The position numbers were made by a program, and so were the translations under genes. A DNA stretch of 64,000 nt from Modicisalibacter luteus DSM 23508 (GTDB lineage Bacteria > Pseudomonadota > Gammaproteobacteria > Pseudomonadales > Halomonadaceae). The notes under the pieces are model-generated. The model searched no databases, had not been told where the DNA came from, and saw only the letters and a list, made by a program, of their open reading frames with translations. Shown here piece after piece: positions 4,455 to 57,985 of this stretch; the stretch's first letter is position 1, and each line of letters starts with the position of its first letter. The DNA lies in assembly GCF_000378505.1 (NCBI RefSeq), contig NZ_KB899999.1, positions 62,001 through 126,000 of the forward strand, written 5' to 3'.

Positions 4455-5510
4455 TCAGTGCGTCTCTATCGGGATCATCAAACGGAATTCGGTACAGCCA
4501 GGGTGCGAGTCGCACTCGATCAGCCCCTGATGCTGGTGCAGGATCGATTGCGCGATGGACAATCCCAGACCACTGCCTTCGGCACGCCCCGACACCATGG
4601 GAAAAAACAGGGTTTCGCGCAGGCTGGCATGAATCCCGGGGCCGTTGTCGATCACCGCCACCTCACAGACCAGCCGGTGGCGCTCGGCTCCCAGGGTGAA
4701 CTGACGTCGCGCTCGGGTACGCAGGATCAGCTGCGGATGCTCGGTACCGCTCTCCTCCATGGCCTGCACGGCATTGCGCGCCACGTTGAGCACCGCCTGG
4801 ATCAATTGGGCATCGTCGCCGCGCAGTTCGGGCAGGCTGGGGTCGTAATCGCGGACATAGTCCACCCGGTGGTGCTCTACCTCCAGCAAGGCACGGACGC
4901 GCTCGATGACCTGATGAACATTCAGTGCCTCGTGATGCACAAGGTTGTTGGGCCCAAGCATGCGGTCGACCAGGTCACGCAGCCGGTCGGCCTCTTCGAC
5001 AATAATGCGGGTGAATTCCGCTAGCTGCGGATTGGGCAGGTCACGTTCGAGCAGCTGAGCCGCCCCACGGATCCCCCCCAACGGATTCTTGATTTCGTGA
5101 GCCAGGCCCCGGGACAGCACCTTGATGGTTTCCTGACGAGCAATCAGAGCCTCTTCGCGGGAAATACGCATCAGCCGATCACGCGGCTCGATCTCCAGCA
5201 GCAGCTCGCTCTCGTTCAACGGCGTCACGGTGAAATCCACCGTGGTTGCCTCGCCGCCGGGCAGAACCAGAACCGCCTCGCGCTGGGTAAAGGGGTGCTG
5301 TTCGCCCAGCGCCTTGTTCAATAACTCGGCAACAGCGCCGTTCTCCCCCTCCAGGCTGTCGAGCCGGGTTCCCTGCACCCGGCTCAGGCTCACCGCCAGT
5401 AGTGCTTCGGCGGCCGGGTTCAACCAGCGCACGCGTAACGCCCCGTCCAGAGTCACCACGGCGGTGGTCAGATGTTCCAGCAAGCGTTGATACATGGCCT
5501 TGTTCCGCAT
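4455..5510 (-). CDS. glnL: Nitrogen regulation sensor kinase NtrB
   Basis: Cytoplasmic histidine kinase/phosphatase that responds to PII and controls NtrC phosphorylation. The 351 residues comprise an N-terminal PAS domain (about 5-110), the H-box GLAHEIKNPLGG with His138, an N-box NVARNAVQAM, and the ATP-binding G boxes DNGPGIH and GSGLGLSIAQSILHQHQG. No membrane segment is present, as expected for NtrB. The start at 5510 has GAAGGGAA upstream. A 17-bp NtrC palindrome about 95 bases upstream suggests autoregulation of ntrBC. Confidence 0.96.
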   Translation of the reverse strand: MRNKAMYQRLLEHLTTAVVTLDGALRVRWLNPAAEALLAVSLSRVQGTRLDSLEGENGAVAELLNKALGEQHPFTQREAVLVLPGGEATTVDFTVTPLNESELLLEIEPRDRLMRISREEALIARQETIKVLSRGLAHEIKNPLGGIRGAAQLLERDLPNPQLAEFTRIIVEEADRLRDLVDRMLGPNNLVHHEALNVHQVIERVRALLEVEHHRVDYVRDYDPSLPELRGDDAQLIQAVLNVARNAVQAMEESGTEHPQLILRTRARRQFTLGAERHRLVCEVAVIDNGPGIHASLRETLFFPMVSGRAEGSGLGLSIAQSILHQHQGLIECDSHPGCTEFRLMIPIETH

Positions 5511-5603
5511 AATGGCTTCCCTTCGCGTTAGTCATTGCAAGAAGCGCGCCATCTACAGGTAGAGCGTATTCCGCGGGGTTAGCGAGAGTATGGCCAGCTG
5601 GCA

Positions 5604-5620
5604 TGCACCATGATAGTGCA
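5604..5620 (-). promoter_or_regulatory. Predicted NtrC-binding palindrome upstream of ntrB
   Basis: TGCACC-ATGAT-AGTGCA matches the enteric NtrC consensus TGCACY-N5-RGTGCA. It is centred about 100 bases before the ntrB start codon. In enterics a comparable site lets NtrC repress its own glnL promoter; the same role here is inference. Confidence 0.65.
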
Positions 5621-5697
5621 TTGCAAAACCCGCATTGCCCCATCGCGTACAGCCAGCCGATGATGCATGTGACAAAAACGGGCAGCCAGGGAGGATA

Positions 5698-6330
5698 TCA
5701 GTTGCCGGAATCGTTCCGGGGTAGGCCGCTCAAGTTGCTGGGGTTGGCCGGCGAATTGGCGCTGGCGCGATGAACGTATAACGTCACCGGCGCACTGCGA
5801 TGACGCACCTGGCCGGAGGCATCCAGCAGTTCAGCCTGCAGACTGTGCTCGCCACGGTCCAAGTTGGTGAGCATGAATGCCCTGGTATGCATCGCCGACT
5901 GACTGATTTCTCCATCGACCAGTAGCCGCACGCGGTGGTCCGGCCGCAGGTCGGGATCGACATCCAGTTCAACCTGAACGTTACCGCCGTAACCGGTCTG
6001 AAGCGTCGCTTCATCCTGTGGCGAGGCGATCTGGAAGGTGGAATAGGGCATGAAAGGCTCGCCAGGGCGACTTTCGCTCGTCCTCGGGCGTGACGAACGC
6101 TCGGCCTGGCCGGTGTCGTTGCTTGACGGTGCGGAGCTGGCTGCGGGGGCTGTGGCTTCCAGGGATGGCACGACCGTCAGAGGCTCGAGTTTGATCTTCT
6201 CGCTGTTGCCGCGCGGCTGGTCGGTAAAGACCACGTTTCCCTGCTCATCCGTGTAGCGGTAGACCGTGGCTGCATCGAGACTGGCCCAGGGCAACAGGGT
6301 ACCCAGCAATAGGCAGGACAATCGCCGCAT
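5698..6330 (-). CDS. DUF4124 domain secreted protein
   Basis: Exported protein of unknown function, 210 residues. An N-terminal signal peptide (MRRLSCLLLGTLLPWASLDA) is followed directly by the DUF4124 motif ATVYRYTDEQGNVVFTDQPRG at about 21-41, a Ser/Pro/Ala-rich low-complexity linker (about 55-90), and a C-terminal beta-rich region that resembles an Ig-like fold (VQVELDVDPDLRPDHRVRLLVDG). DUF4124 genes are often found between glnA and ntrB in gammaproteobacteria, as here; the reason is unknown. It is likely periplasmic. No catalytic motif is visible. Confidence 0.82.
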   Translation of the reverse strand: MRRLSCLLLGTLLPWASLDAATVYRYTDEQGNVVFTDQPRGNSEKIKLEPLTVVPSLEATAPAASSAPSSNDTGQAERSSRPRTSESRPGEPFMPYSTFQIASPQDEATLQTGYGGNVQVELDVDPDLRPDHRVRLLVDGEISQSAMHTRAFMLTNLDRGEHSLQAELLDASGQVRHRSAPVTLYVHRASANSPANPSNLSGLPRNDSGN

Positions 6331-6395
6331 GACCTTCTCCTCGATAACTGCAAGCCGATGATCGGCACCTGACGAACGTAGCCGTAGTGTAACGT

Positions 6396-6425
6396 AAAAA
6401 GGGCCCCGCCATGCGGAGCCCTTTA
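6396..6425 (-). terminator. Terminator downstream of glnA
   Basis: Minus-strand stem AAAGGGCTCCGC-ATG-GCGGGGCCCTTT followed by TTACG, about 40 bases past the glnA stop and before the DUF4124 gene. It should separate glnA transcription from DUF4124-ntrBC. Confidence 0.8.
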
Positions 6426-6462
6426 ATCACGCCATCCCAACGGGATGCAGCGTTATCGCTGC

Positions 6463-7872
6463 TTAGCAGCTGTAATACAGGTCGAACTCGATCGGGTGCG
6501 TGGTCATGCGCAGGCGCTCGACATCCTCGCCCTTGAGTTCGATATAGGCGTCGATCATGTCGTCAGTGAAGACACCACCTTCGGTCAGGAACGCACGATC
6601 CTTGTCGAGGGCTTCCAGCGCCTGATCGAGGCTATTGGCTACGGTCGGCACCTTCTTGCCTTCTTCCGGCGGCAGGTCGTACAGGTTCTTGTCCATGGCA
6701 TCGCCAGGGTGAATCTTGTTCTTGATGCCGTCGATACCCGCCATCAGCATCGCCGCGAAGGCCAGGTACGGGTTGGCGGTCGGATCGGGGAAACGGCACT
6801 CGACGCGCTTGCCCTTAGGGCTGGCAGTGTACGGGATACGGATTGAGGCAGAACGGTTGCGTGCCGAGTAGGCCAGCATGACCGGCGCTTCGAATCCTGG
6901 CACCAAGCGCTTGTAGGAGTTCGTCGAGGCGTTGGTAAAGGCATTCAGGGCACGAGCGTGCTTGATGATGCCGCCAATGTAGTACAACGCCATCTCGGAG
7001 AGGCCAGCATACTGATCGCCAGCGAACTGGTTCTGGCCTTCCTTCCAGAAGGACTGGTGAACGTGCATGCCAGACCCGTTGTCGCCGACCAGGGGCTTGG
7101 GCATGAAGGTCGCGGTCTTGCCGTAGGCGTGGGCCACGTTGTGAACCACGTACTTGAGTTCCTGAACCTCGTCGGCCTTCTTGACCAGGGTGTTGAACTT
7201 GACGCCGATTTCGTTCTGACCGGCGTTCGCCACCTCGTGGTGATGCACTTCAACCGACTGGCCGATGGCTTCGAGGGTGTTGCACATCGCGCTACGGATA
7301 TCGTGGAAGCTGTCCACCGGCGGAACCGGGAAGTAGCCGCCCTTGACGCGCGGACGGTGACCCAGGTTTCCACCTTCAAGCTTGGTCGCGTCGGTCGACC
7401 AGGCACCCTCTTCGGAGGTGATCTTGTACATGGAGCCCTGAATATCGGACTTCCAATGCACCTCGTCGAAAATGAAGAATTCCGGCTCCGGGCCGAAGAA
7501 GGCCACGTCACCCAGGCCAGTGGTGTTCAGGTAGGCCTCAGCGCGCTTGGCAATGGAGCGCGGGTCACGGTCATAGCCCTGCATGGTAGCAGGCTCGATG
7601 ATGTCGCAACGCAGCACCAGCGTCGAATCCTCGGTGAACGGATCGAGGAAGCCGGTGCCGTCTTCAGGGCGCAGAATCATGTCGGATTCATTGATGCCCT
7701 TCCAGCCTTCGATGGAGGAACCGTCGAACATCTGACCGTTCTCGAAGAACTCCTCGTCGACGGCGTTTGCCGGAATCGTAACGTGCTGCTCTTTACCCTT
7801 GGTATCGGTGAAGCGCAGGTCAACCCACTTGACGTCGTGTTCCTCAATCAGGGCGAGTGTCTTCTCAGACAT
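6463..7872 (-). CDS. glnA: Glutamine synthetase type I
   Basis: Dodecameric cytoplasmic enzyme joining ammonia to glutamate with ATP; first step of ammonia assimilation under nitrogen limitation. The 469-residue length equals E. coli GlnA. Visible signatures are [17 protein letters not shown], the metal-binding [10 protein letters not shown], the ATP-binding stretch [16 protein letters not shown], the NRSASIRIP site and the adenylylation loop NLYDLPPEE with Tyr398, so GlnE-mediated adenylylation is expected. The start at 7872 ([12 protein letters not shown]) follows AGGACATC; an upstream in-frame codon only adds four residues. Expression is predicted to depend on the sigma-54 promoter at 7986-8001 and NtrC sites beyond it. 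Confidence 0.98.
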
Positions 7873-7985
7873 GATGTCCTCCACTAATGAGCCCAGGGCT
7901 CGAATCGATGGCTTGCGTGTCCAGCGTCACTTTGTAGCATGCCGAGCCAATATTGCCCATGGCACGCCCAATCTGGCGAATGAAA

Positions 7986-8001
7986 TGCAGAAGGCGTGCC
8001 A
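7986..8001 (-). promoter_or_regulatory. Sigma-54 promoter of glnA
   Basis: On the minus strand TGGCAC-GCCTT-CTGCA matches the -24/-12 consensus TGGCAC-N5-TTGCA at 10 of 11 defined positions, with the invariant GG and GC ten bases apart. The start of transcription would be near 7974, giving a leader of about 100 bases before the glnA ATG. The rest of the 7873-8400 gap holds the NtrC sites and otherwise AT-rich DNA. Confidence 0.75.
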
Positions 8002-8164
8002 AAATGGCGCAACATGCCAGAACGATTCTAGTAATTCCTTGTTTTTTAATTGAAATAATCAAGACATCCCTTTCCTGGAAGCGGCACCGAAAATACCTCC
8101 TCCCGCCTCATGCAGGTGCACGCCCTACATAAGCGCACCAACTTGAAACATTAAACCCACCAAA

Positions 8165-8181
8165 TGCACTATTTAGGTGCA
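8165..8181 (-). promoter_or_regulatory. Predicted NtrC enhancer site upstream of glnA
   Basis: TGCACT-ATTTA-GGTGCA is a full match to the 17-bp NtrC palindrome, about 165-180 bases upstream of the sigma-54 promoter. A weaker site lies at 8134-8150 (GCACC then AACTT, degenerate right arm), and 8111-8120 holds TGCAGGTGCA. Two neighbouring sites of unequal strength resemble the paired enhancers of enteric glnA. Confidence 0.7.
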
Positions 8182-8400
8182 GACTATTTGACACGCATTT
8201 TTTGTGGGCAAAAATACCCACATACGCCTCGAATCGGCGATAATTATGGGACTCACCTAGTGACACACAAAAAAACCATTCTTGGGATTTCCAAAAATCA
8301 GTCGCCTGAACATTGAAACCCTTTGAAACCCACGACTACGCTTCAATTACATAACCTCGGGCAGGAATCCCAACGAGGTTCATGACGTAAGGAAACGTCT

Positions 8401-20882: not shown

Positions 20883-21760
20883 TCGCTCCCCTGGCCGATT
20901 ACGGCTTCATGCGCCGGGCTCTGATCGCCGGGTTGGCCCTGTCGCTTGCCGCCCCTCCGCTGGGTGTGTTCCTGATGCTGCGCGGCATGAGCCTGATCGG
21001 CGATGCCATGGCACATGCCATCCTGCCCGGCGTAGCGCTGGGCTTCCTGATGGCGGGCTTCTCGCTGCCGGCAATGAGCTTGGGCGGCATACTCTCGGGG
21101 CTGGTGGTCGCCGGTCTGGCCGGCGGGGTCTCGCAGATGACCGGTCATCGCGAGGACTCGGCTATGGCTAGCTTCTATCTGATCTCGCTGGCCGCCGGGG
21201 TCATGCTCGTCTCGCTGGGCGGCAGCAGCGTGGATCTGACCCATGTGCTGTTCGGCTCGATCCTTGCCGTGGATACCACCGCCCTGCTGCTGATCGCGGC
21301 AGTGAGCACAGCGACCTTACTGCTGCTTGCAGTGATGTTCCGCGCCCTGGTCATGGAGTGTCTGGACCCGCTGTTCCTGCGCGGACAAGGCGTGCGCCCC
21401 GGCCTGATCCAGGGGGTGTTCCTGGGCTTGGTGGTAATCAACCTGACGGCCGGCTTCCAGACACTGGGCACGCTGATGGCCGTAGGCCTGATGATGCTGC
21501 CGGCCACCGCTGCACGCTTCTGGTCCAAGCGTCTGGAAGGCCTGATGGGCCTGGCCATCGTTATTGCCATGCTCTCCAGTACCGGCGGGCTGCTGCTGTC
21601 GTATCACCTCGACCTGCCGTCAGGGCCGAGCATCATCCTGCTGGCCGGCATCGCCTACCTGCTGTCGGCGCTGTTTGGCCGTTACAACAGCCTTCTCGTC
21701 CGCCTGCGTCGGCGCGCTGCCCCGCTGGACACGTCACGCAACGGCGCAGCTTCGGCATAA
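20870..21760 (+). CDS. Zinc ABC transporter permease
   Basis: ABC-3 family inner-membrane subunit of 296 residues, similar to ZnuB/AztB. About eight or nine hydrophobic helices; family features are FLMLRGMSLIGDAMAHAILPGVALGF near residues 34-60 and the C-terminal GTLMAVGLMMLPATAARFW. It starts inside the ATPase gene (13-base overlap), showing translational coupling. Confidence 0.9.
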   Translation: MLDLIAPLADYGFMRRALIAGLALSLAAPPLGVFLMLRGMSLIGDAMAHAILPGVALGFLMAGFSLPAMSLGGILSGLVVAGLAGGVSQMTGHREDSAMASFYLISLAAGVMLVSLGGSSVDLTHVLFGSILAVDTTALLLIAAVSTATLLLLAVMFRALVMECLDPLFLRGQGVRPGLIQGVFLGLVVINLTAGFQTLGTLMAVGLMMLPATAARFWSKRLEGLMGLAIVIAMLSSTGGLLLSYHLDLPSGPSIILLAGIAYLLSALFGRYNSLLVRLRRRAAPLDTSRNGAASA

Positions 21761-21791
21761 CCTGTCACTCCCTCACGAAAGGAAACGTTCC

Positions 21792-22787
21792 ATGCGTAGA
21801 CTGCTTGCCCTCGGCCTGATCGCTGGCACCACCGGCCTCGCCCTGCCCGCCTGGGCGGATCCGCTGCGCGTCGTCACCAGCTTCAGCGTGCTCGCCGATA
21901 TGGTCGAGCAGGTGGGTGGCGAGCAGGTCAACGTTACGCCACTGGTCGGGCGCGACAGCGACACCCACGCCTTCACACCCAGCCCCGGCGATGCCCGTCG
22001 CATTGCCGAAGCCGATCTGGTGGTCTTCAATGGCCTGCAACTGGAAGGTTGGATGGAGCGGTTGATCGAGGCAAGTAGCTACCAGGGCCCTCTGGTCATT
22101 GCCAGCGAGGGGATCGAGCCCTTGAATGGCGAAGCCCATGAACACAGCGATCACAAAGGCCATGCTCATGATCATGAGCACGAAGAACATGCGCATGAAG
22201 ATCATGACCATGCGGACCGTGCTCACGACGCCCATGAAGGGCACGATCATGGTGACACGGACCCGCATGCCTGGCTTGACGTGTCACGTGCCCAGCAATA
22301 CGTGACCAATATCCGCGATGGCCTGATCGAGGCCGACCCGGACCACGCCGAGGCGTATCGCCAGAATGCCAGGGCCTATCACGACGAACTCGGCGCGCTG
22401 GATGAAGAGATACGTCGCCTGATTGCGGATATTCCTTCGGAAAATCGCCTGGTCGTCACCGGGCATGATGCATTCAACTACTTTGCCGATGCCTACGACG
22501 TGCGCTTCCTCTCCCCGGTAGGCCTGAGCACGGCCAGCGAACCTTCCGCGGCGCTGATGGGCCGCCTCATCGACACGCTCTCAGCGAACCAGGTCAAAGC
22601 GCTGTTCCATGAGAACATCACCAACCCGGCGCTGATCGAGCAACTCGCCGAAGAGGCCGATCTGCCGATTGCCGGCACGCTCTACTCCGGTGCCCTGGCC
22701 GCTAGCGGCGAGGCCAGCACATACGCCGGCATGATGCGCCACAACGCCACGCTGATTCACGACGCGCTGGCCGGAAACACCGAATAA
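21792..22787 (+). CDS. Zinc ABC transporter substrate-binding protein
   Basis: Periplasmic cluster A-I metal-binding protein, 331 residues. Signal peptide MRRLLALGLIAGTTGLALPAWA, then VTSFSVLADMVEQVGG, metal-ligand region RDSDTHAFTPSPGDARRIAEADLVVFNG, a very His/Asp/Glu-rich loop (about 117-155, more than a dozen His), DPHAWLDVSRA, VVTGHDAFNYFA and LFHENITNP. The acidic His loop is typical of zinc-specific members and less so of manganese ones. RBS AAAGGAAA. Last gene of the zinc operon, followed by a terminator at 22885. Confidence 0.92.
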   Translation: MRRLLALGLIAGTTGLALPAWADPLRVVTSFSVLADMVEQVGGEQVNVTPLVGRDSDTHAFTPSPGDARRIAEADLVVFNGLQLEGWMERLIEASSYQGPLVIASEGIEPLNGEAHEHSDHKGHAHDHEHEEHAHEDHDHADRAHDAHEGHDHGDTDPHAWLDVSRAQQYVTNIRDGLIEADPDHAEAYRQNARAYHDELGALDEEIRRLIADIPSENRLVVTGHDAFNYFADAYDVRFLSPVGLSTASEPSAALMGRLIDTLSANQVKALFHENITNPALIEQLAEEADLPIAGTLYSGALAASGEASTYAGMMRHNATLIHDALAGNTE

Positions 22788-23670: not shown

Positions 23671-26150
23671 GGCCCGGAACGGCTAGCCCCGGAGTACTAC
23701 GCACGACCTGGCTGACCCTTTTTAGCCATTACCGGCGTCACCCCGGCCAGCTTGCCATGCTGCTGCTCGGGCTGTGGGTCGCCAGTGCACTGTGGAGCGG
23801 GGTGCAGGCGATCAACGCCTCGGCTCGCGACAGCTATGCGCGTGCCGAGACCCTGTTCAGTGCCAGCCTCGACAGCGTCACTCGCCGCGACAACCAGCCT
23901 CTGTCCCTCGTTACCTACCTGTCCTTGCGGCGTGCCGGCGAACCGGTGTCGCCACTGGTCGAGGGCGACCTGACCCTGAGCGACGGTACGTCCCTGCGCG
24001 TGATCGGTATCGATCCGCTGACCTTGCCCGGCGAGTCGGGCCTGGCGCGGCAACAAAGCGATGCGGCATCGCTACGCGACTGGATCCTTCCCCCACATCG
24101 CGCCCGCATCGCTCCGGAGAACGCCGACGCTGCCCGCGCCGATTCGCGCCTGCCGCCGCTGGAAGCCGACCCCAGCCTGCCGCCGGGTACGCTGGTCACC
24201 GATATCGGCGTGGCCCAGCGCTTGCTGGGCGTGGAGACGCTGAGCCGGCTGGTCGTCGCACCCGAGCAGTCCCTTGCCCTGCCGCCGACCCTGGTTCGCC
24301 AATCCGCCGCTGCACTGGCCTCGCCCGGACAGCTCACGGATAGTTTCCACCTCAATCTGACCGCCATGGGATTGCTGGCGCTGATCGTCGGGCTGTTCAT
24401 CGTGCATGCCGCCCTCGGCCTGGCCCTGGAGCAGCGCCTGGGCATGCTGCGCACGCTACGCGCCCTGGGTGTGCCGGGCCACACACTGATCATCGCGATG
24501 GCCCTGGAGCTGTTGCTGATCGGCCTGCTCGGCGCCGTACTGGGTATCGTGAGCGGAGTCGTGCTGGCGCGTTTACTGCTGCCCGACGTGGCCGCCAGCC
24601 TGGATGCACTCTACGATACCGACGTCGCCAGCCACTTGTCCCTGCCTTGGTATTATTGGCTGGGCGGCCTGGCGGTGACGCTTGGCGGGCTGTTCTCGGC
24701 CGGTTTCGGCATGTTGTGGCGAGCTGCACGTCTCGACATCCTCGCCCTCGGCAAGGCCCAGGCCTGGCGCGCCCGACTGCATCGCCAACTGCGTCTGCAG
24801 GCCGGGGCCGGTACCGTCCTGCTGGGCGTGGCCCTGTGGCTCGGCTGGCGACTGGACCACCAACCCAACCCTCAGGAGCTGGCGCTGGGCTTCGCCATGG
24901 TCGCCGCACTGCTGCTGGGCGCATCGCTATGGCTGCCGCCACTGCTGGCCGGTAGCCTGGGGCTGCTCTCCCGACGCCTGCGCTCGCATCCGCGTCTGCA
25001 ATGGGCTTTGGCCGACTTGCAGCTGCAGCTTCCCCGCCTGCAGTTGCCGATGATGGCCCTGTTGCTGGCGCTTTCCGCCAACCTCGGCGTGGGCAGCATG
25101 GTCGGCGGTTTCCGTCTGACCTTCCTCGACTGGCTCGATCAGCGCCTGCTGGCGGACATGTATGTGCGCCCCCCGGAAGCCCAGTACACCGATGTGGCCG
25201 CGTGGCTCGAAGGCCAGGACGAGGTCCAGGCATTGCTGGAGGCACGCCATGCCGAGGCGCCGAGACTTGATGCCGAGGGACAGACTACCGGGCGCACACT
25301 GGCGTTGTTCGGCATCACGCCGGCCCCGATAATGCGCCAGTCCTGGCCGCTGCTGGACACCGCCACGGGCCATGAAGCAGCGTGGCAGGCACTGGACGCA
25401 GGCGATGGCGCATTCATCAACGAGCAGCTTGCCCACCGTGACGGCTTGGCGCCCGGCGACCCGCTACACTTGCGCAGCCCGCAGGGCCCCGTGATGCTGA
25501 CGGTCGCCGCGATCTATCCCGATTACGGTAACCCGCGTGGCGAGGCCGTACTGTCGGCCTCCCATCTGACCGAGAAGTTCGCCGCAACTCCGGGCTCGCT
25601 GGGCGTCGTACTACGTCCAGGGTCACGCGACGTTGCCGGACTACAGGCAGCGTTACGCGAACGTTTTGGCCTGGGCGGCGACGCCGTGGTCGACCAGGGC
25701 GCCGTGAAACGTACCGCTACCGAGATCTTCGAGCGGACCTTCGCCATTACTCAAGCGCTCAATGCGCTGACCCTGGCCGTGGCCGGACTGGCATTGCTGA
25801 CTACCCTGTTGGCCCAAGCCGGGGCGCGGCGTGCCCAGTTGGCGCCGCTATGGGCGCTGGGGGTCTCTCGCCGGCAACTGATCGGGCTGCAACTCGGTCA
25901 GCTGGTGTCAGCCGCGACGGGCACCGCCGTGCTGGCCATCCCGTTGGGCATAGGTCTGGCCTGGGCGCTGGTGGCGGTCATCAACGTTGCCGCTTTTGGC
26001 TGGCGGCTGCCGCTGCATATCTTCCCGAGCCAGATCGCCATGACGATTGTGCTGGCCATATTCGTTGCCGCCCTGGCCACGCTGCTCCCCGCCTGGCGGC
26101 TATGGCGCGTGCCGCCACGCCAGTTGCTACAGGAGTTTGCCGCTATATGA
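23667..26150 (+). CDS. FtsX-like ABC transporter permease
   Basis: Large inner-membrane permease of 827 residues with two FtsX units: an N-terminal helix (LAMLLLGLWVASALWSGV), a long periplasmic domain, a three-helix FtsX domain around 235-365, further helices at about 380-450, a second periplasmic domain and a terminal three-helix FtsX domain (about 695-820, LTLAVAGLALLTTLLAQAGARRAQLAPLWALGVSR). Eight-to-ten helix members pair with one LolD-like ATPase. Start and stop overlap both neighbours by ATGA-type junctions. Mechanotransmission rather than classical transport is likely (inference from family). Confidence 0.88.
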   Translation: MRPGTASPGVLRTTWLTLFSHYRRHPGQLAMLLLGLWVASALWSGVQAINASARDSYARAETLFSASLDSVTRRDNQPLSLVTYLSLRRAGEPVSPLVEGDLTLSDGTSLRVIGIDPLTLPGESGLARQQSDAASLRDWILPPHRARIAPENADAARADSRLPPLEADPSLPPGTLVTDIGVAQRLLGVETLSRLVVAPEQSLALPPTLVRQSAAALASPGQLTDSFHLNLTAMGLLALIVGLFIVHAALGLALEQRLGMLRTLRALGVPGHTLIIAMALELLLIGLLGAVLGIVSGVVLARLLLPDVAASLDALYDTDVASHLSLPWYYWLGGLAVTLGGLFSAGFGMLWRAARLDILALGKAQAWRARLHRQLRLQAGAGTVLLGVALWLGWRLDHQPNPQELALGFAMVAALLLGASLWLPPLLAGSLGLLSRRLRSHPRLQWALADLQLQLPRLQLPMMALLLALSANLGVGSMVGGFRLTFLDWLDQRLLADMYVRPPEAQYTDVAAWLEGQDEVQALLEARHAEAPRLDAEGQTTGRTLALFGITPAPIMRQSWPLLDTATGHEAAWQALDAGDGAFINEQLAHRDGLAPGDPLHLRSPQGPVMLTVAAIYPDYGNPRGEAVLSASHLTEKFAATPGSLGVVLRPGSRDVAGLQAALRERFGLGGDAVVDQGAVKRTATEIFERTFAITQALNALTLAVAGLALLTTLLAQAGARRAQLAPLWALGVSRRQLIGLQLGQLVSAATGTAVLAIPLGIGLAWALVAVINVAAFGWRLPLHIFPSQIAMTIVLAIFVAALATLLPAWRLWRVPPRQLLQEFAAI

Positions 26151-27274
26151 AACGTTCCACCCTGCTGCTGTTGCTGGCAACGGTGATCCTTGCCGGCCTG
26201 GGCAAGGCATTCTGGCCGCAAGACACGTCCCCGCAGGCCGGCTATGCCGGCCTGGGCGAGCAGGCGAGCGGCTTCGCCCAAGCCGGGCCGGGGCACGCGC
26301 TGGCCTTTCCCGAGGATCATGGCCCGCATCCCGGCTTTCGCATCGAATGGTGGTATCTGACGGCCAATCTGGAAAGTGCCGATGGCCGTCCATTCGGTGT
26401 GCAGTGGACCCTGTTCCGCCAGGCACTGGCGCCCGAGACCGGCAACAACGACGAGGCAAGCGATTCCCCGTGGCAGGACAGGCAGTTGTGGATGGCCCAC
26501 GCCGCCCTCTCGACGCCGCAGGGGCACCGTTTCGCCGAAAAGTTCGCGCGCGGCATGGCCCTGCCCGCCGGCCAGGGCCAGGCAGGCGTGATGGCAGCCC
26601 CGTTTTCCGCCTGGATCGATGACTGGTCGCTGGCTGCCGTTTCGGCCGACGCCGGGCTCGATCAACTAACGGTACGCGCCGAGGCCGACGACTTCGCCTA
26701 TCGTCTCGCCCTGACTGCACAGGGCCCCCTGGTCCGCCATGGTGAGGACGGTTTCAGTCAAAAGTCTGCCGATGGCCAGGGCTCGATGTACTACAGCCAG
26801 CCGTTCTACCAGGTCGAAGGCACGCTGCGCCTCGGCGACGAGCCGATCGTCGTGTCCGGACGGGCCTGGCTGGACCGGGAATGGAGCAGCCAGTTGCTGG
26901 GCGCGACTCAGCGCGGTTGGGACTGGTTCTCGCTGCACCTCGCTGGCGGTGCCAAGCTGATGGCCTTTCGTCTGCGCGGCGGCGGCAGTGAAGAGGGGGA
27001 CTACCTTTCCGGTAGCTGGATCACGCCTCAGGGCCAGGTGACTGCTCTGGGCGAGGGCTCCCTGCGCCTGACACCGGTTAAAACAGATGACGTGGCCAGT
27101 AGGGAATTGCCCACGACCTGGCGAGTCGAGGCACCCGACCACGGGCTCGATGTTACCGTAAGCGCGGTCCACCCCGAGCAATGGATGGGCACGTCATTTC
27201 CCTACTGGGAGGGCATGGTCACCTTGCAAGGCAGTCATGTCGGCGAGGGCTACCTGGAAATGACCGGCTATTGA
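26147..27274 (+). CDS. AttH-like (lipocalin-type) secreted protein
   Basis: A 375-residue protein of the AttH/carotenoid 1,2-hydratase-like family, a double-lipocalin beta-barrel fold. An N-terminal signal or anchor (MKRSTLLLLLATVILAGLGKAF) precedes the family landmarks FPEDHGPHPGFRIEWWYLTANLES, GVQWTLFR, WMAHAALSTPQGHRF, MYYSQPFYQVEGTL, WLDREWSSQLL and GWDWFSLHLAGGAKLMAFRLR. Coupled by ATGA overlap to the FtsX permease. The protein probably acts at the periplasmic side with the ABC complex on a lipophilic ligand (inference). Confidence 0.88.
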   Translation: MKRSTLLLLLATVILAGLGKAFWPQDTSPQAGYAGLGEQASGFAQAGPGHALAFPEDHGPHPGFRIEWWYLTANLESADGRPFGVQWTLFRQALAPETGNNDEASDSPWQDRQLWMAHAALSTPQGHRFAEKFARGMALPAGQGQAGVMAAPFSAWIDDWSLAAVSADAGLDQLTVRAEADDFAYRLALTAQGPLVRHGEDGFSQKSADGQGSMYYSQPFYQVEGTLRLGDEPIVVSGRAWLDREWSSQLLGATQRGWDWFSLHLAGGAKLMAFRLRGGGSEEGDYLSGSWITPQGQVTALGEGSLRLTPVKTDDVASRELPTTWRVEAPDHGLDVTVSAVHPEQWMGTSFPYWEGMVTLQGSHVGEGYLEMTGY

Positions 27275-27281
27275 ACAGGCA

Positions 27282-27297
27282 GTGAAAAGAATTTCAC
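27282..27297. promoter_or_regulatory. Inverted repeat upstream of the predicted small RNA
   Basis: GTGAAA-AGAA-TTTCAC has perfect 6-bp arms. It sits just after the AttH stop and before an AT-rich stretch (TTAATTAAT) that could be a -10 region, so it may be an operator for the downstream RNA; a short attH terminator is an alternative. Confidence 0.4.
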
Positions 27298-27324
27298 AAA
27301 ACTTTAACCAAGTTAATTAATGTG

Positions 27325-27488
27325 GCCCACAGGCCTGAGACCATATGCGCCATCGGGCAGGGAGAGGCTCGAACAGGGAAGACCGAGCACAGGGAAGGCT
27401 CACGTACCAAGGAAGCACGGGCAGGACGCCTGTGATGATGCAAGGAAAGCAGCGCTAGAACGCCCGGCCTATTGGCCGGGCTTTTTAT
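27325..27488 (+). ncRNA. Predicted CsrB/RsmZ-like CsrA-sequestering small RNA
   Basis: No gene fits this 217-base gap, but it has the hallmarks of a Csr/Rsm RNA: six GGA motifs in about 85 bases (27361, 27377, 27393, 27411, 27424, 27444), most within AGGGA or AAGGA. At least three sit in hairpin loops: GCTCG/CGAGC (27367-27371 with 27384-27388) with AGGGA in the loop; CACGGGC/GCCTGTG (27416-27422 with 27428-27434) with loop AGGAC; and TGC/GCA with loop AAGGAAA. It ends in a strong terminator at 27462-27487. The 5' end is approximate; GGCC-CACA-GGCC at 27324-27335 may be the first hairpin. Such RNAs bind CsrA/RsmA dimers. Confidence 0.68.
27462..27487 (+). terminator. Terminator of the CsrB-like RNA
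   Basis: GCCCGGCC-TATT-GGCCGGGC, an 8-bp perfect stem, followed by TTTTTATT. It lies a few bases past the stop of the convergent Crp/Fnr gene. Confidence 0.9.
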
Positions 27489-27491
27489 TGC

Positions 27492-28307
27492 TTATTGCTT
27501 CAAGGCTTCTTCGGTGAGGTGCATATAGCCCGGATCGAAGTCCCCGAATGCCTTCAACGCTTCCCAGTCATGGATGGTCAGTTGTTTATTGTCGTAGGCG
27601 ATTAGCCCGTCGCCACGCAGCTTCTGCATCACTCGATTGGTATGCACCACGGTGATCCCCATGGCATCGGCCAGGTCTTGCTGGGTCAAAGGAAAGTCGA
27701 TGCAGTTTTCTTGGGTCAGGCCGGCGGCTCGATGACGCAGTTGCATTTCGCAAAGCAGATGCGCCAGGCGTTTGTCGGCTGGCCGGCCGGTATTGTTGAC
27801 GAACCATTCCCGCTGTACGGACTCCTCGACCAACGAAGCCCAGAAGAAGGCATAAGCCAGCGAGGTGTAGTTCTCGAAGATATGGTTGACCGTCTCGCGG
27901 GGTATCAGGGCGAACGTGACCGATGTCAGGGTGCTGACTGAATGATCCATGTGGTCGAGTAACGCGATATGCACATCGCACACATCGCCGGGAATCAGGT
28001 AGGCCAGGATGGCCCGCCGGCCATCGGCCAGATGCTTGTAACGACAGGCCCAGCCATCGACGACGATATGCACATGGTCGGGACGTTCGTTCTCGCTAAT
28101 GAGGTTCTTGCCCTTCTCCACGGTGATCGAGCGGACGATTGATTCACGAAGTCGTTGCTTGTCCGGTTCGGACAGCTCCATGAAGTTGCCCAACCGATAG
28201 ATCAGTGCGTCGATCGAAGCCGAGCTCTCCCTGTCGGTATTTCCACTACGCCCCGCCCCCGACCCGGACGACATGAGCCTGTGTCGCCTATGCATGCGAC
28301 GCGTCAT
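27492..28307 (-). CDS. Crp/Fnr family transcriptional regulator
   Basis: A 271-residue regulator with a cyclic-nucleotide-binding-type sensor domain (about 40-160: ITVEKGKNLISENERPDHVHIVVDGWACRYKHLADGRRAILAYLIPGDVCDVH) and a C-terminal winged helix (about 175-250: FPLTQQDLADAMGITVVHTNRVMQKLRGDGLI). There are no clustered cysteines for an Fnr-type iron-sulfur cluster and the Crp cAMP-contact Arg-Ser pair is not evident, so the ligand is unknown. GGAGGA six bases before 28307 fixes the start, which lies inside the end of the OBAP gene by 20 bases; the two are coupled. Confidence 0.85.
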   Translation of the reverse strand: MTRRMHRRHRLMSSGSGAGRSGNTDRESSASIDALIYRLGNFMELSEPDKQRLRESIVRSITVEKGKNLISENERPDHVHIVVDGWACRYKHLADGRRAILAYLIPGDVCDVHIALLDHMDHSVSTLTSVTFALIPRETVNHIFENYTSLAYAFFWASLVEESVQREWFVNNTGRPADKRLAHLLCEMQLRHRAAGLTQENCIDFPLTQQDLADAMGITVVHTNRVMQKLRGDGLIAYDNKQLTIHDWEALKAFGDFDPGYMHLTEEALKQ

Positions 28308-29022
28308 CGATATCCTCCACTCCCGGTACCGGTTGGGTATGGCTGAACGCACCGGCCAGGGCATTCACCCCGCGCTGTGGATGAGCCAGTTCCAGGTAAG
28401 TCTGGCGGTCGCGGGCCTTGCTGTCGACGTCGACCTGCATGGCCTGATCGCGATTGCGCTTGAGCGTCTCGTCGCACTCCCCCAGGCGGTTGAAAGACCA
28501 CATCAATTTCGCCTCGCCCATGGGCAGGGCGTCACCCGGGTCGCCATCGTGATGGCCGGTATGCCACGTATGCCACGTCTTGCCGTAGCTGTTCACCAGA
28601 CGCTTCATGAACGCCGTTTCGGCGGCTTCGGGAATCCCGGGAGCGATCAGTTCGCCGGAGAACACTTCATAATTATGGGGATGCCAATAGCTCTGCTCAT
28701 TGGCCGGCAAGCTCTCGAACAGCGCCTCCGAAACGATGTACTCAATACCGATCAGATTGGCATTCGACGTATTTCCGTCGAAAATCAGACACTGCAGAAA
28801 GTCGTCGTTAACCACCTTGCAGTAATGGTGGGCTTCCATCTGCATGTGCGGATCGCACTTGGCGCAATGAAAGCCGACGACATAGACATCGAAGCCCTTC
28901 ATTGGCGACTTGTCCTGCAGCAGGTTGGCTCCCTGCTCGAGCACGGCCAGCCACGCCCCCTTGTCTGCCCCTGGAGGCTGGACCGGGCTGTGGCGTCGAT
29001 TGACGGTTGGTCTGCGTTTCAT
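28288..29022 (-). CDS. OBAP/DUF1264 family protein
   Basis: A 244-residue protein of the DUF1264 family, named after plant oil body-associated proteins. The core MKGFDVYVVGFHCAKCDPHMQMEAHHYCKVV, FLQCLIFDGNTSNANLIGIEYIVSEALFESLP, QSYWHPHNYEVFSGELIAPGIP and KTWHTWHTGH carries conserved His and Cys residues that could bind metal. There is no signal peptide. RBS AGGGAGG. It overlaps the start of the Crp/Fnr gene. Biochemical function in bacteria is not established; the link to a nucleotide-sensor regulator is the only contextual clue. Confidence 0.82.
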   Translation of the reverse strand: MKRRPTVNRRHSPVQPPGADKGAWLAVLEQGANLLQDKSPMKGFDVYVVGFHCAKCDPHMQMEAHHYCKVVNDDFLQCLIFDGNTSNANLIGIEYIVSEALFESLPANEQSYWHPHNYEVFSGELIAPGIPEAAETAFMKRLVNSYGKTWHTWHTGHHDGDPGDALPMGEAKLMWSFNRLGECDETLKRNRDQAMQVDVDSKARDRQTYLELAHPQRGVNALAGAFSHTQPVPGVEDIDDASHA

Positions 29023-29161: not shown

Positions 29162-29698
29162 ATGACACTATTCACCGAAAAGCACCCGGGCGTCGAGGCG
29201 CACGTTCCCCAGGAAACGTCCGGTTTCACGCTCAATCACACCATGTTGCGCATCAAGGATCCGCAGCGCTCGTTAGCCTTCTACAGTCACGTGTTCGGAA
29301 TGCGCCTGCTGCGCAAGCTGGATTTTCCCGAGATGCAGTTCACCCTTTATTTCCTGGCACGGCTCGAGGAAGAGGACCAGGTGCCTGAGGATCCCGGCGA
29401 GCGCACCATGTGGACCTTCAGTCAGCGCAGCATACTTGAGCTGACCCACAACTGGGGTAGCGAGGACAAGGCCGACTTCGCCTACCACGACGGCAATGCC
29501 GAGCCGCAGGGCTTCGGCCATATCTGTTTCTCGGTCCCTGACCTGACCACGGCAGTGCACTGGCTGGATCGCAACGAGGTGGAATTCGTCAAGCGTCCCG
29601 ATCAGGGCAAGATGCAGGGTGTGGCTTTTGTGAAAGACCCTGACGGCTACTGGATCGAGATCATCGAGCCGGCCCTGATGACCCAGGCAGGTCGCTAA
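29162..29698 (+). CDS. gloA: Lactoylglutathione lyase (glyoxalase I), copy 1
   Basis: Cytosolic metalloenzyme isomerising the methylglyoxal-glutathione hemithioacetal to S-lactoylglutathione. The 178-residue length and inserted segment after LYFLARLEEEDQ match the longer, eukaryote-like/GloA3 class, often zinc-dependent. Metal ligands are visible: His in LNHTMLRIKD, Glu in ILELTHNWG, His in GFGHICFSV and Glu in YWIEIIEP. It faces a closely similar paralogue at 29786 on the opposite strand. Monocistronic. Confidence 0.92.
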   Translation: MTLFTEKHPGVEAHVPQETSGFTLNHTMLRIKDPQRSLAFYSHVFGMRLLRKLDFPEMQFTLYFLARLEEEDQVPEDPGERTMWTFSQRSILELTHNWGSEDKADFAYHDGNAEPQGFGHICFSVPDLTTAVHWLDRNEVEFVKRPDQGKMQGVAFVKDPDGYWIEIIEPALMTQAGR

Positions 29699-57727: not shown

Positions 57728-57747
57728 CTTAGGATGGCCCATTCGAA

Positions 57748-57945
57748 GACAGGTGCCCCTGATGTGCTGCAAGGGGATAATCGGGAAGTATGGTGCGGCC
57801 TGCGGCCAATCCCATCGCTGCCCCCGCAACGGTAATGAAAGAGCTGCCTGCGAAGACCACTGGCATCTGCCGGGAAGGCACAGGCAACGGCGTGTTCTGC
57901 GGAATGCATCCTCTTCGAGCCCGGAGACCGGCCTGTCATAACGTA
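57748..57945 (+). promoter_or_regulatory. Cobalamin riboswitch
   Basis: Class elements appear in order: AGGTGCC at 57751, the GGGATAATCGGGAAGT...GGTG core with CCAATCCCATCGCTGCCCCCGCAACGGTAA (57774-57835), CCACTGG...GGAAGGC, and the B12 box AGCCCGGAGACCGGCCTG at about 57918-57936. It lies about 40 bases before cbtB, so adenosylcobalamin binding should repress the cobalt-uptake and chelatase operon. A long minus-strand frame across it is a shadow. Confidence 0.93.
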
Positions 57946-57985
57946 CCATCCCATAACGGTGCGGTGGGCACCGAAAGGATCCAAA

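Follow-up and report, generated by a model that had tools for sequence, protein, structure and literature searches.

A many-copy family of predicted CsrA-sponge RNA genes in Modicisalibacter luteus and its relatives

The window analysed here, a stretch of 64,000 nucleotides from the genome of Modicisalibacter luteus DSM 23508 (contig NZ_KB899999.1, positions 62,001 to 126,000), carries a gene for an AttH/CrtC-type lipocalin protein and, convergent with it, a gene for a Crp/Fnr-type regulator (Table 1). The short space between the two holds a predicted small RNA gene. An earlier note on this DNA had placed a CsrB/RsmZ-like RNA at 27325-27488. The element is indeed present but slightly shorter: the best matches to paralogues in the same genome in a DNA search cover 27351-27486, and this span points to where the gene begins and ends, here taken as 27351-27487. 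Elsewhere in the window a cobalamin riboswitch was found at 57734-57950 on the plus strand (Rfam RF00174, 95.3 bits).

Table 1. Features of the predicted small RNA gene and its surroundings (window coordinates)
Feature	Position	Strand	Basis or remark
AttH/CrtC-type lipocalin protein gene, upstream	26147..27274	+	PF07143, PF17186 (Pfam)
Degenerate palindrome AGTGAAAAGAATTTCACA at -70	27281..27298	+	differs from TGTAAGN6CTTACA at 5 of 12 positions, as expected by chance
Second promoter element TAACCAAGTTAA, from -46	27305..27316	+	AAC-N1-3-RGTTA
Predicted small RNA gene	27351..27487	+	matches to paralogues in own genome; 5' end inferred, +/- a few bases
Hairpin 1	27353..27372	+	GGA 27361 in loop; predicted fold, pair changes
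Linker GGA (AGGGA)	27377..27379	+	GGA present here in 82/83 family matches
Hairpin 2	27385..27401	+	GGA 27393 in loop; predicted fold, pair changes
Linker GGA (AAGGA)	27411..27413	+	GGA present here in 83/83 family matches
Hairpin 3	27416..27434	+	7-bp stem, loop AGGAC, GGA 27424; double changes at 7/7 pairs
Linker GGA (AAGGA)	27444..27446	+	GGA present here in 83/83 family matches
Intrinsic terminator GCCCGGCC-TATT-GGCCGGGC-TTTTT	27462..27486	+	double changes at 7/9 pairs
Crp/Fnr-type regulator gene, downstream, convergent	27492..28364	-	PF13545, PF00027, PF00325 (Pfam)

The predicted RNA folds into three hairpins and an intrinsic terminator. Its six GGA motifs all lie inside 86 bases, the three hairpin loops and the three linkers having one apiece, much as the earlier note had described them: six in about 85 bases, at least three in hairpin loops, one of these loops (AGGAC) on a 7-bp stem. 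The strong terminator of that description corresponds to an 8-bp stem made up of G and C only (27462-27481), followed by TTTTTATT. The number of GGA motifs says little by itself. Dinucleotide shuffles of 27351-27461 contain six or more in 32% of cases. The bare count, being thus at chance level for this composition, is not significant and was discarded as evidence; on that count alone the stretch might be no more than a G/A-rich spacer ending in a terminator. The longer motif ANGGA is more telling. It occurs five times in the same interval, a number equalled in only 0.9% of the shuffles, and at least five ANGGA per 111 nt are found nowhere else in the window when both strands are scanned. The folding z-score is -3.2 for 27345-27489 and -2.2 for 27351-27487.

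Two home-made covariance models, whose E-values are rough, were used to follow the element: R1, built from an alignment of 23 copies, and R2, built from 83 matches. The window copy scores 134.7 bits in a covariance model search, being itself among the training sequences. The 83 matches come from 64 loci and give 81 distinct rows in an alignment (A2) that was fitted to the structure of the model and is thus biased in its favour. Among the distinct rows changes on both sides are seen at 23 of the 25 pairs (5/5, 4/4, 7/7 and 7/9 in the four helices), and 94.6% of the cells are paired, against 22-50% when the pairing is shifted by 1-3 columns. RNAalifold, run on an unfitted alignment (A1), missed hairpin 1; it did return hairpins 2 and 3 as well as the terminator, and 10 of its 21 pairs showed double changes. 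The loop GGA is kept in 78, 80 and 80 of the 83 matches (loops 1 to 3) and the linker GGA in nearly all of them (Table 1). Conservation of motifs and stems in relatives had been proposed beforehand as a check, and both are borne out by the covarying stems and by GGA sites present in 78-83 of 83 matches.

These changes also bear on the question of whether the stretch might encode a small protein, either in a 65-aa frame at 27320-27517, which is open, or in one of the shorter frames. The ATG of the 65-aa frame is missing from both syntenic orthologues, and this longest frame was rejected for that reason. Indels between copies are not multiples of three and sequence change tracks base pairs; we hold a coding function to be extremely improbable.

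In a DNA search of 58 genomes, including that of M. luteus itself, 12 genomes had matches; the own genome had nine matches, one of which comprised the terminator only. With R1 the own genome gave 19 matches at E < 1e-8. Two pairs of these overlap and represent single longer RNAs, which reduces the 19 matches to 17 loci. R2, applied to 14 regions of the own genome, likewise found 17 loci at E <= 2e-15, with another two at 1e-7 and 3e-7; 11 of its 30 matches, with E between 8.5e-6 and 0.006 and in several cases antisense to terminators, are not part of this count. GGA arrays are also present at the two weaker loci (contigs C5 and C1), whose flanks match regions of a related genome, G001, in which R2 matches were found at 4e-9 and 2e-8. 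Altogether the 19 loci contain 149 GGA and are 122 to 261 nt long, most of them 122-147 nt. The flanks of nine of the 14 regions match regions around copies in G001 or in a second relative, G009, with summed scores above 500 bits, indicating that part of the spread, at least, is old; of the remaining five, two match these genomes weakly and three do not match. As to mobility of the window copy, 27340-27490 has no DNA match in plasmid or phage collections, and a mobile-element reading was set aside.

Within the own genus (g1, 14 genomes) 13 genomes have an R1 match at E <= 1e-3. The numbers range from 20 in the own genome and 19 in G009 down to 0 in G013, overlapping matches and antisense terminator matches included. 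When antisense terminator matches and the two weakest candidates of G009 (L268, L269) are left aside, R2 gives 15 loci in G001 (E <= 2e-8) and 14 in G009 (E <= 2e-10). Two genomes of the genus, G005 and G013, have no R2 match at E <= 1e-4 although csrA is present in each; a further diverged sponge RNA may serve in these two. In a sample of 201 Halomonadaceae genomes, with up to 16 candidates scored per genome, 124 were matched at E <= 0.01, spanning 18 of 24 genera; 106 of these reached E < 1e-7 and the other 18 had a best E worse than 1e-5. Nine genomes of a second genus, g20, picked because the family survey had shown many matches in them, have 6 to 12 matches each, while the other g20 genomes of that survey have few or none. 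Two further arrangements were seen among the relatives: in G009 a tandem cluster in which about 3.1 kb hold four family RNA genes (L259, contig C30, about 5250-8340) and, in G011 (L010, contig C35, around 29239-29651), hairpin units with the loop GCAGGA repeated in an array, which suggests a much longer sponge RNA.

A sample of 194 genomes from the whole order served at the same time as a control of specificity. Eight genomes matched at E <= 1e-4, five belonging to the Halomonadaceae and three lying outside (E 4e-7 to 5e-6). A family of copies with covarying stems and fixed GGA sites, and with only three matching genomes outside the Halomonadaceae in this sample, makes a spacer with a chance accumulation of GGA extremely improbable. 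Conserved synteny of the window copy is limited, the RNA being present at two of the 16 AttH loci searched, out of 80 retrieved.

Rsm RNAs controlled by GacA are preceded by an 18-bp GacA box, which is given as TGTAAG-N6-CTTACA and lies about 75 bp upstream in the case of rsmY (PMC4950607). Four perfect boxes occur in the 4.53 Mb of the own genome, three of them at -92/-93 of family loci. The half site TCTTAC is found upstream of 12 of the 19 loci (at -61/-62 in ten, at -82 in two), compared with 1.4% of random windows of equal length. Boxes with 0-2 mismatches precede seven of the 19 loci, and 13 have such a box or the half site. At up to two mismatches the box is no commoner genome-wide than a reversed control (55 against 67 sites), so that meaning can be attached to strict or positioned sites only. 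In 11 other genomes 62 sites with at most one mismatch were found, against 25 control sites, and at least 5 of their 15 perfect boxes lie within 100 nt upstream of a family match among those listed.

The fourth perfect box of the own genome (L234, C1:196348-196365) is not associated with a family RNA. A reading frame, which we take to encode an NYN-type protein, follows about 200 bp downstream, and a promoter-like stretch here resembles the sponge promoters.

The window copy and five other loci of the own genome have neither a GacA box with 0-2 mismatches nor a half site. No recognisable box was found upstream of the window copy, the best site being a palindrome with five mismatches in 12 positions. 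This 18-bp palindrome, at -70, sits where many paralogues carry their box (-73) but is not kept in the orthologues of two species, both of which also lack a box; a canonical GacA box was looked for at the window copy and not found. A second promoter element is present. The motif AAC-N1-3-RGTTA was counted upstream of 76 of the 83 matches, two repeats and five others being left out: 21 have it, 20 of them at -47 to -44, compared with 0.8% of random 100-mers. A consensus sigma-70 promoter was looked for upstream of the window copy and not found. Having the -46 element and no box, the window copy may be independent of GacA.

Alternatively, the RNA may be freed from the AttH mRNA, given that a terminator search of the interval from the AttH stop (27274) to 27351 was negative. 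In its strongest form this would mean that cleavage of the 3' end off the AttH operon mRNA, and not a dedicated promoter, is the main source of the sponge RNA, in the manner of RsmW of Pseudomonas aeruginosa, which lies downstream of a protein gene and is suggested to be cut from the 3' end of a longer transcript (PMC4950607). The missing box is in keeping with such an origin. It is at odds with the second promoter element, whose distance agrees with that in other copies, and with the box or half site that 13 of the 18 other loci of the own genome possess. We consider a mainly 3'-end-derived RNA unlikely, though worth bearing in mind.

The absence of a box from the window copy and from its orthologues might also be taken as a sign that this copy is a silent paralogue in decay. 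However, 27351-27461 is identical to the syntenic copy of G001 at 107 of 111 positions (96.4%) and to that of G009 at 96 of 111, whereas the spacer upstream of the transcript is identical at 52 of 76 positions (68.4%) in G001 and 54 of 76 in G009; third codon positions of AttH are 69% and 68% identical, respectively. This contrast fits purifying selection on the RNA. All six GGA are retained and the stems are intact, which makes decay improbable.

A presumed partner for the predicted RNA is encoded in the same genome, which has three csrA genes above the Pfam cut-off; residues 1-58 of one of the proteins align to a solved chain of the CsrA family. A GacA is present too (NCBIfam UvrY/SirA/GacA equivalog, 291.8 bits, cut-off 280). 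It might not have been expected that a sponge copy lies divergent from accessory csrA genes, and this arrangement is found in three species. On contig C12 of the own genome (L046, G000:C12:20922-22014) a family gene at 20922-21067 on the minus strand is divergent from a csrA gene starting at 21226 on the plus strand, with a perfect GacA box at 21143-21160 between them. A second csrA starts at 21856 and is preceded by a box with one mismatch (21769-21786). G001 has the same order, a sponge gene and two csrA, and G009 has a sponge gene and one csrA. In both, a box with two mismatches precedes the accessory csrA corresponding to the second one of C12; G001 has no box with up to two mismatches in the space separating its sponge gene from the first csrA. 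These positions suggest that GacA would act on the accessory csrA genes.

The number of sponges has been proposed to follow the number of CsrA proteins, an idea of Moll et al. cited in PMC7911923, and a family with so many copies bears on it. In genus g1 the csrA count is 3, 2 and 3 in the three genomes richest in matches (20, 19 and 15, respectively) and one in each of the other 11. Outside g1, more than one csrA match was found in six genomes. Co-expansion as a general rule is unsupported, the nine chosen g20 genomes having 6-12 matches yet a single csrA each.

Taken as a whole, the sequence makes it probable, at roughly 0.9, that the window element belongs to the functional class of CsrA-sponge RNAs. 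It would be an intergenic, non-coding RNA gene with an intrinsic terminator and a longest frame that is not conserved; GGA or ANGGA occupies loops and linkers, all six sites are kept and ANGGA is above chance; and CsrA is encoded in the same genome. The GacA box typical of GacA-controlled Rsm RNAs is found at other loci of the own genome, not at the window copy. The sponge reading of the earlier note is supported by covarying stems, conserved GGA sites and the presence of CsrA and GacA. A different possibility is an RNA of the Hfq type whose GGA-rich loops pair with other RNAs rather than with CsrA. Such exposed loops could in principle pair with pyrimidine-rich stretches, but the alternation of six GGA between loops and linkers is the reported sponge pattern and many copies have GacA boxes or half sites upstream, so we hold this to be very improbable.

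The assignment to the sponge class does not extend to any Rfam family. On the window no Csr/Rsm model reached its gathering score, the best being RsmY (RF00195) with 18.9 bits against 57, as foreseen in the earlier note, according to which automatic annotation might miss the RNA. On the 19 loci the best scores were 33.2 against 71 for CsrB (RF00018) and 28.3 against 57 for RsmY. We are therefore dealing with a lineage-specific family within the known class of CsrA sponges.

Repeated GGA motifs enable such RNAs to sequester RsmA (PMC2375449), and the family resembles RsmY, RsmZ and RsmX of Pseudomonas in having GGA repeats in loops and linkers and, at the paralogues, a GacA box. RsmY is the best Csr-type match of the window copy and is covered over its full model, if below threshold. 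The differences are the lack of a box at the window copy and a far higher number of copies per genome. CsrB and CsrC of Escherichia coli share class and architecture; the CsrB score above belongs to the long paralogue on contig C7 (E 1.7e-5), but the CsrB model has 356 positions, compared with 122-147 nt for most copies here. Sponge RNAs without a nearby GacA box are known in P. aeruginosa, namely RsmW and RsmV (PMC4950607, PMC7366521). RsmW lies downstream of a protein gene, as does the window copy; many paralogues of the latter, in contrast, carry boxes.

According to a paper of 2020, one to seven functional Csr/Rsm RNAs had been detected in different species (PMC7366521). Azotobacter vinelandii has many paralogous sponge RNAs induced in stationary phase through GacA, eight by one count (PMC12923157, 2026) and nine according to a table listing RsmZ1-7 and RsmY1-2 (PMC7366521). 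It is a close parallel in having many sponges in one genome, yet the 17-19 loci found here in the M. luteus genome were unexpected, being about twice the published maximum that we found (seven to nine). The same table has the entry 'Unknown' for the Csr/Rsm RNA of Halomonas anticariensis (PMC7366521), and in the open-access literature on Halomonas, Halomonadaceae or Modicisalibacter with Csr/Rsm RNAs we found no description of this RNA family.

The way in which the RNA would act can be outlined as follows. An RNA of about 137 nt would offer GGA from three loops and three linkers to CsrA dimers and draw CsrA off mRNA leaders, whereby translation of those mRNAs would be released. That the window RNA is transcribed, binds and sequesters CsrA and so frees its target mRNAs is what we infer from features computed directly, i.e. 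the conserved structure and GGA sites, the boxes at paralogues and the genes for CsrA and GacA. The 13 other loci with a box of at most two mismatches or a half site are probably activated by GacA. The window copy, in which the RNA and the downstream promoter element would have been retained and the box lost, is probably GacA-independent, subject to a weak GacA input, or derived in part from the AttH operon as its 3' end.

A wider reading can be offered tentatively, and we would give it somewhat less than an even chance as a whole: in this lineage Csr may be run by an array of many sponge genes, in part GacA-driven and in part free of GacA, paired with csrA and set by dosage. The array would comprise 17-19 genes of one RNA family, scattered over the genome and with about 149 GGA between them, some driven by GacA and some, the window copy for instance, freed from it. 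In the richest genomes the extra CsrA proteins would match the sponge array, and where, as in three species, a sponge is divergent from an accessory csrA with a GacA-like box, GacA would raise CsrA together with its antagonist.

Whatever the fate of this reading, a conserved family that no Rfam model reaches at threshold is ready to be tested in the bacterial family that contains Halomonas, a genus of which one species, Halomonas bluephagenesis, has been engineered for bioplastic production (PMC13414033). The copy number makes it testable why cells keep so many apparently redundant sponges. If the array reading is true, the set-point of the Csr system in these bacteria would depend on gene dosage and on a mixture of promoters, and not on one or two strong RNAs.
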